DNA of 64,000 nt. It comes from Verrucomicrobiota bacterium. Its GTDB lineage: Bacteria > Verrucomicrobiota > Verrucomicrobiia > Chthoniobacterales > UBA10450. Below are positions 37,985-55,336 of the stretch, one piece after another. A program made the position numbers and the translations under genes. Positions within the stretch are counted from its first letter, which is position 1; the number at the start of each line of letters is the position of its first letter. The notes under the pieces are model-generated. The model was not told the DNA's origin, searched no databases, and was given only the letters and a program-made list of their open reading frames with translations. Location of the stretch: contig QHNH01000025.1 of the NCBI GenBank assembly GCA_003218375.1, positions 1-64,000 of the forward strand, written 5' to 3'.

Positions 37985-38024
37985 GAGAAGAAAAGTAGGA
38001 AGTAGAAATTAGGAAGTAGGAAAC

Positions 38025-44538: not shown

Positions 44539-44937
44539 TCACCAGACGTAAGCCAGCAGCTCGCCTCCCACGTTTTGTTTTTTCGCTTCCCGGCCGGACA
44601 AAATGCCGCGCGGGGTTGAGAGAATCGAGATGCCCATTCCGCCCAGGACGCGTGGAATTTCCTTCGCGCCCACGTAACGCCGAAGGCCGGGCCGGCTCAC
44701 CCGTTTCAGGCCGGTGATGGTGCTCGTCCGGTTCGCGATCTTGTTCGTAATCTTGATGCGCGGATGCGCCGCCTCGGTATCGACCGAGTAATCGATGATG
44801 TAGCCTTCCTCTTTCAAAATGCGCACGACCTCCGCCTTGATCTTGGAATAAGGAACAAACATCTCCGGCTTCTGCGCTGCCCCGGCGTTGCGCACGCGGG
44901 CGAGAAGGTCGGCAATAGGATCGGTAACTGTGCTCAT
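44539..44937 (-). CDS. rpsH: 30S ribosomal protein S8
   Basis: DPIADLLARVRNAGAAQKPEMFVPYSKIKAEVVRILKEEGYI; LSTPRGILSGREAKKQNVGGELLAYVW. Confidence 0.97.
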   Translation of the reverse strand: MSTVTDPIADLLARVRNAGAAQKPEMFVPYSKIKAEVVRILKEEGYIIDYSVDTEAAHPRIKITNKIANRTSTITGLKRVSRPGLRRYVGAKEIPRVLGGMGISILSTPRGILSGREAKKQNVGGELLAYVW

Positions 44938-44942
44938 CTTGG

Positions 44943-45551
44943 TTAGGCGGCTGGCGCGGCTGCGACTGGTTCCTCTTTTGCGGGACTCGCCGTGGCGAGC
45001 TTCTTGGCCCGGTCGCTGAACGGCATTCCCATTTCGCTCAGGAGCGATTTGGCTTCCTCATTCGTCTGCGCGGTGGTGACGATGGTAACATCAAATCCGA
45101 TGTTGCGCTTGATTTTATCGAGCTCGACCTCCGGAAAGATCGACTGGTCGGAAACACCCAGGGTGTAGTTGCCATGCCCGTCGAAACCTTTCGGCGAAAC
45201 GCCGCGAAAATCGCGGATCCGTGGTAGCGACGCCTTGATCAGGCGTTCGAGAAATTCATACATGTGCTCGCCGCGCAGCGTGACCTTCGCGCCAATCGCC
45301 TGTTCCTTGCGCAACTTGAAATTCGCGATGCTTTTCTTGGCCCGGGTTTCCGACGGCTTTTGCCCGCTGATCAACGCCAGCTCCGCCTTCGCATCTTCCA
45401 GCCCCTGCTTCACGTCCGACTGCGAGCCGACAGAGGTGTTAATGACGACCTTCTCTACCTTCGGAACCTGATGCGGATTCTTGTAGCCGTGCGTTTTTTG
45501 CAACGCCGGCACCACCCGCTCTTTGTAATGATCGTAAAACTCGTTCTTCAC
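44943..45551 (-). CDS. rplE: 50S ribosomal protein L5
   Basis: [45 protein letters not shown]. Confidence 0.97.
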
Positions 45552-47960: not shown

Positions 47961-48434
47961 TTATTCTTTCGCTTCCGACTTCTCAGCCTCAACCGTTTTG
48001 TCCTTCGCGCCCTTTGTGGCCTTTGTGCCCTTTGTGTGAGCCTTCTTCTTGGACGCACCGGCCTTTTTCCCGCCCTTTTTCTTGTCCCGCGTCTTGATCT
48101 CGATCTCGTCCGTTAAAATGATCCGAATGTGGCTGCTCCGTTTCAGGATCCGGCTGCCGCTGCCGCGCGCCCGCGTCATCAGCCGTTTCATCGTCGGGCC
48201 TTCGCCGACGGTCGCTTCCTTCACAACCAGGCCGTCCACGCGCAGATTCGCGTTGTTCTCCGCGTTCGCGACCGCGCTCTTGAGCGTCTTCGCGATCAAG
48301 TGCGCCGCCTTCTTCGGGCTGAATGCCACCAGGTCGAGCGCGGCCGAAACCGGCAAGCCCTGAATGGCGCGGGTGACTTCGCGCACCTTGAAGGGCGAAA
48401 TCTTCGCGTACCGATATGTCGATCTGACTTGCAT
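47961..48434 (-). CDS. rplV: 50S ribosomal protein L22 with Lys-rich C-terminal tail
   Basis: [57 protein letters not shown]. Confidence 0.96.
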
Positions 48435-49220
48435 TTATTTCAAACTCACATTCTTGCGAGCGTCCGCCTGGAGGCGATCGCCCACCTTTATCTTCTCTTT
48501 TTCAGAATCCATTTTTTGAATCACCGCGCCGCAAATCCGCTGGCGCACATCCACCACTCGCAGCGTCGCGATCTGTTTGTCGCCCCGCATCACCCGCATC
48601 GGCATTCCCATCTTCACGCCCTGTTTTTCCCCGATGTTGCCGACCACTAGCGACCATTCGTCTTTCACGCTGATCACAGTGCCGTCCATCAACGTCGCTG
48701 TTTCGGCCGGCGGGTTGTCCGCTTTCGCGATCAACTCGTTCAGGCTGCGCAACTGCGTTTCCACTTCCATCCGCGCCTGCGCGTCGCCTCCGGTCGAGGT
48801 CTTGAGCAGATGCAGGATCGCTTCGCTCAACCGCAAACTCTGGTCGCGATACTGTTCCCGTTCCTTCTGCAACAACTGCAGATCGGAAACCGCGCTCAGC
48901 AATCGCTGCTCGACCTTTGCCCGATCCTTGTCCGCTGATTCCAGCCCGAGCGCTTCCATTCGCAACTCGAGATCGGAAGACTTCCGGCGAAAAACTTCGG
49001 CCTGCAGGTTCGACTCCGCCAGGCTGTCCGTCAATGTCCGGACCGATTCGCGCGCGAGCGAAAGCTCCCTCCGCAGCGCCTCGTTTTGCGAGAGCAACTC
49101 CGCGGCGGTCACTTTCGTGTCCGCGTTTTCAACTTTGGATTCTGTCAAAGAACTATTCCCTTGCGCTGCCAGCTCTCCAGCCGAGCAGACGCTTCCCACA
49201 AACAAGATTATCGATCCGCG
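48435..49220 (-). CDS. Exported/anchored coiled-coil protein of unknown function encoded between rpsS and rplV
   Basis: ORF 48435..49277; coiled coil LLSQNEALRRELSLARESVRTLTDSLAESNLQAEV..., C-terminal beta-type region ISVKDEWSLVVGNIGEKQGVKMGMPMRVMRGDKQIATLRVVDVRQRICGAVI; true start uncertain because the ORF 5' end runs through a repeat. Confidence 0.75.
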   Translation of the reverse strand, partial: RGSIILFVGSVCSAGELAAQGNSSLTESKVENADTKVTAAELLSQNEALRRELSLARESVRTLTDSLAESNLQAEVFRRKSSDLELRMEALGLESADKDRAKVEQRLLSAVSDLQLLQKEREQYRDQSLRLSEAILHLLKTSTGGDAQARMEVETQLRSLNELIAKADNPPAETATLMDGTVISVKDEWSLVVGNIGEKQGVKMGMPMRVMRGDKQIATLRVVDVRQRICGAVIQKMDSEKEKIKVGDRLQADARKNVSLK

Positions 49221-49243
49221 ACTAACGACTACTGCCTTCAGCA

Positions 49244-49271
49244 ATCGAAAATCGAAAATCGAAAATCGAAA
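49244..49271. repeat. Tandem heptamer ATCGAAA x4
   Basis: atcgaaaatcgaaaatcgaaaatcgaaa directly read. Confidence 0.9.
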
Positions 49272-49278
49272 ACTCACA

Positions 49279-49557
49279 TCACTTCGTCACCTTCGCAGTG
49301 TGCGAACCGTGCTTCTTAAAGATTCGGGTCGGCGAAAACTCGCCGAGCTTGTGGCCGACCATGTTCTCCGTCACGAACACGGAGATAAAAGTTTTGCCGT
49401 TGTGCACCATGAAGGTGTGGCCGACGAAATCAGGCGTCACCATCGAGCGGCGGGCCCATGTCTTCACCGGCTTCTTCACGCCCGACGAATTCATCTTGTC
49501 GATTTTTTCGAGAAGATGCGCGGGAACGAACGGTCCTTTTTTCAATGATCTGGCCAT
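49279..49557 (-). CDS. rpsS: 30S ribosomal protein S19
   Basis: [19 protein letters not shown]...[35 protein letters not shown]. Confidence 0.97.
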
Positions 49558-54551: not shown

Positions 54552-54704
54552 AATGACGAATGACGAATAACGAATGACGAAGTAAGGCCGAAGCCCAAAT
54601 GACGAAACATCGTCACTGCGCTTCGCACCCTTCGTTTTTCGTTTTCGTTCATCGTTTCGTGTTTCGTCATTCCTTCGTCATTCGTCATTCGTGCTTCGTC
54701 ATTT
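54552..54704. repeat. TGACGAA-type iterated inverted repeat, fusA-rpsG spacer
   Basis: AATGACGAATGACGAATAACGAATGACGAAG ... TTCGTCATTCCTTCGTCATTCGTCATTCGTGCTTCGTCATT. Confidence 0.85.
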
Positions 54705-55228: not shown

Positions 55229-55336
55229 AATGACGAATGACGAATGACGAATGACGAAGGCCCGTCATTGCGCCTGCAGTTTTCCTCGTTTCGCCATTCA
55301 TTCGATTCGTCATTCGTCATTAGAAATTCGTCATTC
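55229..55336. repeat. TGACGAA-type iterated inverted repeat, rpsG-rpsL spacer
   Basis: AATGACGAATGACGAATGACGAATGACGAAGG ... GATTCGTCATTCGTCATTAGAAATTCGTCATT. Confidence 0.85.

Follow-up and report, generated by a model that had tools for sequence, protein, structure and literature searches.

Introduction

Few bacterial gene orders are as conserved as that of the S10 cluster, where genes for exported proteins of unknown function would not be expected. The gamma-proteobacterial boxA consensus, GYTCTTTAANA, is bound by NusB and NusE, the latter being ribosomal protein S10 (PMC5725501). Sites of boxA/Nus antitermination and autoregulation have been described in rRNA leaders and, in gamma-proteobacteria, at suhB and rpsJ (PMC5725501). 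Among envelope proteins, MreC (PF04085) combines an N-terminal membrane or export segment with a coiled coil and a C-terminal beta domain, and FlgT (PF16538; PDB 3w1e, 8z5n), a periplasmic H-ring protein of the flagellum, has a small six-stranded C-terminal barrel. Here we analysed a Verrucomicrobiota window, a stretch of 64,000 nucleotides that holds the str-S10-spc ribosomal cluster on its minus strand, with a gene, termed X, lying co-oriented between rpsS and rplV.

Results

Position of X in the ribosomal cluster

The features of the locus are collected in Table 1. A preliminary description of this DNA had reported that the rpsS-rplV pair is split by a co-oriented ORF of up to 280 aa; coordinates, orientation and sequence description were all found to be correct. 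An AAGGTGA motif resembling a Shine-Dalgarno sequence is located at the end of rpsS, 9 nt ahead of the GTG of X, and the junction between the X stop and the rplV start reads TAAATG. The nearest named relatives of the window are metagenome genomes of Spartobacteria/Chthoniobacterales and of Candidatus Udaeobacter. Two other peculiarities of the cluster were observed. At 44539-45551, rpsH directly follows rplE, and rpsN is missing from its usual slot between them. Furthermore, rplV has a lysine-rich C-terminal extension (47961-48120), which derives in part from a 9-bp tandem repeat (48009-48036).

Table 1. Coordinates of gene X, its neighbours and its features in the window.
Feature	Position	Strand	Remarks
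Gene X	48435..49277	-	280-aa exported coiled-coil/barrel protein (export predicted); GTG start; TAA stop abuts rplV ATG
rpsS (S19)	49279..49557	-	Upstream neighbour of X
rplV (L22)	47961..48434	-	Downstream neighbour; start codon immediately after X stop
Signal peptide/N-terminal region	49164..49277	-	Residues 1-38; predicted cleavage ELAA|QGNSS
Heptamer tandem repeat (AATCGAA x4.3)	49243..49272	.	100% matches; dispersed element over the 5' end of X
boxA-like element GTTCTTTGACAG	49142..49153	-	Inside codons 42-46 of X
Helical/coiled-coil region	48717..49106	-	Residues 58-187; AlphaFold2 model
C-terminal six-stranded barrel, FlgT-like fold	48462..48689	-	Residues about 197-272; AlphaFold2, Foldseek; FlgT_C Pfam sub-threshold
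Arg245 codon (DVR motif)	48543..48545	-	Arg in 95% of syntenic X; Glu in 15/21 paralogues

An ancestral gene of the S10 operon in Verrucomicrobiota

Searches of Pfam, NCBIfam, PDB sequences and Rfam returned no family above threshold for X, and no description of it was found in an open-access full-text library. The PVC signature protein (CT421.2, 53-80 aa) was considered and is a different protein. Homologues and loci were sought within the phylum Verrucomicrobiota, to which all counts given here refer. An X homologue was present in 51 of 58 relatives, and every strong homologue that was examined lay between rpsS and rplV. Profile matches were obtained in 140 of the 188 genomes of the class, a count that includes weak matches to paralogues. 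The order rpsS-X-rplV was also seen in loci from about 20 families outside the order and in families of other classes. In total, 153 fetched loci, spread over many of the phylum's families, have X immediately before rplV, at a median gap of 16 nt. The preliminary description would have been refuted by a lack of homologues at this locus, and had missed that they occur throughout the phylum. In a phylum sample of 129 genomes with rpsS and rplV both located, the two genes were separated by more than 350 nt, leaving room for X, in 43 genomes, by 150-350 nt in 4 and by 150 nt or less in 37; in the other 45 they lay apart.

X also stayed in place where the operon is interrupted. Among the distinct rplV regions that were fetched without a nearby rpsS, 24 of 31 had X directly upstream of rplV (one of these 24 'split' regions, L021, is a contig end and no true split). 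Thus the operon broke between rpsS and X, and X remained with rplV. In several families (L254-L282) the break lies exactly between rpsS and X, and X heads the X-rplV-rpsC half. In one split-operon genome (L274:475-2361), X comes straight after tatC (Pfam TatC, E 2e-47) and overlaps it.

Comparison of pairwise distances gave 0.62 for X against rplV, 0.67 for X against rpsC and 0.69 for rplV against rpsC. The X distances therefore follow those of rplV and rpsC about as well as those follow each other, as vertical descent predicts. Against the closest relative, dN/dS of X was about 0.09 (dN 0.032, dS 0.37), and X is under purifying selection. Nevertheless, X has been lost repeatedly. Several families, among them f20, f64 and most of f24, have no X between rpsS and rplV, and it must be dispensable there. 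Genomes of 0.9 Mb, putatively Xiphinematobacter-like, have no intact X in the gap, and a congener with a genome of normal size (G144) keeps it. In summary, X goes back to the ancestral S10 operon of Verrucomicrobiota and is tied to rplV. That an insertion found across the phylum remains joined to rplV even after operon breakage is a strong sign of function.

X encodes a predicted exported protein with a coiled coil and a small barrel

A strongly hydrophobic N-terminal segment was found in 133 of the 153 syntenic X members. Distant members have clean Sec signals ending in AxA|Q, for instance MKLAATAAGICALGLATLASAQ in L034. These relatives bear out the exported or anchored start that had been read from the window, with export being a prediction. 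Within the family to which the window belongs, dispersed heptamer repeats of three kinds often encode the signal region, and the segment is hydrophobic all the same. Residues 2-12 of X are encoded by a TTTTCGA heptamer repeat, an element type with about a dozen locations across the genome. The repeat had been noted before as ATCGAAA and is real (4.3 copies, 49243-49272); the promoter suspected there did not materialise, as no sigma-70-type site was detected at the repeat (0 found, 0.9 expected).

Further heptamer tandem repeats are located at 37993-38022, 54552-54703 and 55229-55336, and some form inverted pairs (AATGACG ... TTCGTCA upstream of fusA). Among relatives, three different heptamer types overlap the region coding for the X signal peptide, and a close relative with a mature X protein 94% identical has an unrelated, repeat-derived signal peptide. 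Hairpins of inverted heptamers at the start of X are strong in some relatives. The longest perfect inverted repeat in the window measures only 5 nt, and such hairpins are therefore not essential.

The protein was modelled with AlphaFold2 using 50 sequences. The whole chain reached a mean pLDDT of 71.9 and a pTM of 0.32, with a pLDDT of about 80-88 in the barrel domain; the barrel modelled in isolation had a pTM of 0.71. Both the coiled coil and the C-terminal beta domain that had been proposed from the sequence are present in the model, as helices (residues 58-187) and a six-stranded domain (residues 199-271). Foldseek placed flagellar FlgT (8z5n, 3w1e) at the top for the whole chain as well as for the isolated domain, the latter with E-values of 1.5e-4 and 1.0e-3 and TM-scores of 0.61-0.64 over the query. 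Judged from the model, the barrel thus probably has the FlgT_C fold. At the sequence level, the curated cut-off of PF16538 (FlgT_C), 27 bits, was not reached: 9 of 22 members gave sub-threshold matches (best E 2.9e-4), and the window protein itself gave none. The match of the barrel to FlgT is remote.

The shortest syntenic forms of X (~120-190 aa) keep signal and barrel and have shed most of the coil, which marks the barrel as the core. The window protein shares the three features of the proposed syntenic family, namely a barrel with the DVR-type Arg, a signal or anchor, and a gene directly upstream of rplV. The contrast between Arg245 and the Glu of genome-internal paralogues marks this family. 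One paralogue (L252:4264-5100; G000:C42:195287-195595) has Glu at the position of Arg245; glmS and a probable glgC are close by, and a gene for a small putative lipoprotein comes after it. Related paralogues exist in many genomes.

The start of X carries a boxA-like element

Codons 42-45 of X, just past the predicted cleavage site, are frozen at the nucleotide level (AGTTCTTTGACA) and read AGT TCT TTG ACA. By its sequence, this element is boxA-like: GTTCTTTGACA differs from GYTCTTTAANA by one substitution, A to G, the consensus being gamma-proteobacterial and the consensus on the X side having G. The preliminary description had overlooked this candidate RNA element. No second exact GYTCTTTGAMA is present in the window, and across the 11-kb ribosomal region the minus strand has a single TCTTTGA. 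In 53 genes at the order level, Ser43 was encoded by TCT in 96% (background 11%), Ser42 by AGT in 94% (15%) and Leu44 by TTG in 96% (29%). Codon columns 42-44 have the strongest codon bias anywhere in X.

As a control, element counts were compared with synonymous-codon shuffles that preserve protein and codon usage; related genes are not independent in these counts. The search used NTCTTTG[AT] within the first 110 codons, since a narrower YTCTTTRA misses TCTTTGTCA forms. Within the order, the element was found in 44 of 56 X genes (shuffle mean 6.3, max 11). Counts were 11 of 40 for the remaining members of the class (shuffle mean 1.2, max 5) and 5 of 17 for other classes in which the operon is intact (shuffle mean 0.3, max 2). 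It recurs in separate families. Codon bias and shuffles alike place the conservation at the level of nucleotides rather than amino acids. In the 'split' set, the element was detected in 0 of 24 X genes at a shuffle mean of 1.7; thus it goes with the mid-operon position. The boxA of split lineages may differ, as the rRNA leaders of G232 and G283 gave no match. Most X genes outside the order, including those of a putative Akkermansia-like genus, had no element match either, and boxA therefore cannot be the sole reason why X has been kept.

Matching elements in rRNA leaders

The core of the X element is also present in the organism's own rRNA leader. The 16S leader of the genome (G000, L293) contains GATCTTTGACAGTGCAATTTTGGAT at -284 and ATTCTTTGATCAAAAATTT at -177, and a corresponding pair was found in the relatives G007 and G019. 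The form GATCTTTGACAG is common to the -284 site and the leader of the congener G007, and GATCTTTGATAG occurs in the rRNA leader of G019. A TTCTTTGA-type element was also found in several further rRNA leaders from the phylum. Across the 3.96 Mb genome, GWTCTTTGACAG has four exact copies, one of them in X and one in the rRNA leader, and a reversed control pattern occurs 0 times. The other two exact copies (L315:1501-1512, L314:1501-1512), one at the stop codon of pheT and one downstream of lepA, are possibly due to chance. They show that roughly one or two chance copies are to be expected.

Discussion

A proposed feedback of S10 in the middle of its own operon

We lean slightly towards the reading that X is an ancestral exported envelope protein, and that the boxA-like element in its 5' coding region gives S10 (NusE) and NusB a site of action midway through the S10 operon. 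X would leave the cytoplasm by the Sec route or stay anchored by its N-terminus, its coiled coil would make it oligomerise, and the FlgT-like barrel, placed in the periplasm, would provide the cell envelope with a docking or scaffold module. When RNA polymerase reaches the middle of the operon, NusB and S10/NusE, made from the operon's first gene, rpsJ, would bind the element in the nascent X mRNA. The bound NusB-S10 could then modify the polymerase, either keeping up elongation or causing repression. Transcription and translation of X, rplV and the later genes would thereby be protected or tuned. Free S10 would in this way act back on the distal half of the operon that encodes it, and the output of X would keep pace with that of ribosomes. 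Such a feedback by S10 fits the finding that split operons, in which X heads its own half, lack the element.

The signal shared by the start of X and the rRNA leaders suggests that envelope protein and ribosome production are jointly controlled. More tentatively, we can imagine a phylum-specific circuit in which NusE(S10)-NusB reads a boxA in an exported-protein gene within its own operon, so that envelope material and distal ribosomal proteins are controlled together. The most likely role of X itself is that of a scaffold or adaptor in the periplasm, made in amounts that follow ribosome synthesis. A growth-coupled envelope role, as proposed in the preliminary description, may apply. The boxA-like element opens a direct test of the coupling of ribosome synthesis and envelope growth in Verrucomicrobiota, and also bears on whether Nus factors act within ribosomal-protein operons beyond proteobacteria.

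Other readings of the element and of the protein

The element might instead reflect the protein. An SSL or RSL peptide is kept right after the signal peptide in many X proteins, and 58 of 60 elements share the TCT.TTG reading frame, so that X could be merely a co-transcribed envelope protein, with Ser-Ser-Leu past the cleavage site acting, for example, in recognition of the mature N-terminus and no RNA signal involved. We regard this as unlikely. Six Ser codons are available, yet TCT makes up 96% at position 43 and AGT 94% at position 42; synonymous shuffles never approached the observed counts where the element is common, and almost the same nucleotides stand in the non-coding rRNA leader. 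Although many copies contain TTGACA, we consider it highly improbable that the conserved TCTTTGACA acts as a -35 box, with an internal promoter driving the rplV part of the operon. TCTTTG is constant, but the letters after it vary (ACA, TCA, AAA, AAT, AAG, ATG, ACG), and no sigma-70-like site was found in the region, which together make a -35 box unlikely; the near-identical copy in the rRNA leader also argues against it.

The protein, too, can be read in other ways. As an exported leader protein before rplV, X could act as a SecM-style nascent-chain monitor that gauges the capacity of the Sec system and sets rplV half-operon expression accordingly. Its predicted export, its place as first gene of the rplV half in several split operons, the tight junction to rplV (median 16 nt, TAAATG in the window) and a domain ending near the stop codon would suit such a role, but what is conserved is a folded barrel about 75 residues long and not a short arrest peptide, and the C-terminal tail is short, variable between families and free of a recognisable arrest motif. 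We therefore think this role improbable. Even more doubtful is a divergent MreC-type protein of the cell-elongation machinery. The preliminary description had compared the beta region to MreC or to secretion systems, and this was half right: the layout of membrane or export signal, coiled coil and beta domain is MreC-like, Listeria MreC was the third Foldseek match for the whole model, and NCBIfam gave a weak MreC match (E 0.01). However, FlgT ranked first, the isolated domain is closer to FlgT with MreC outside its best 50 matches, and PF04085 gave no match over its curated cut-off. The AlphaFold2 models have one barrel and not two as in MreC, and the X gene is unlinked to mreB or mreD. As a true MreC is encoded elsewhere in the genome (G000:C27, PF04085 E 6.5e-41), X is not the MreC of this organism.

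Comparison with known systems

X thus resembles MreC in the order of its parts and differs from it in having a single barrel, no Pfam match, another gene neighbourhood and a separate true MreC beside it in the genome. With FlgT it shares the small six-stranded C-terminal barrel, at about 15-18% identity; the rest of FlgT is missing, a coiled coil is present instead, and X is encoded with ribosomal proteins. The paralogue family has a membrane segment, a coiled coil and a homologous barrel like X, but lacks linkage to ribosomal genes and in most members carries Glu where X has the near-invariant Arg245. The element of X is like boxA in that its core, GNTCTTTGA, is that of boxA and of the organism's own 16S leader, and in that the first gene of the operon encodes S10/NusE. 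It is unlike known boxA sites in having G for A at one position and in lying inside a coding sequence in the middle of an operon rather than in a 5' leader.
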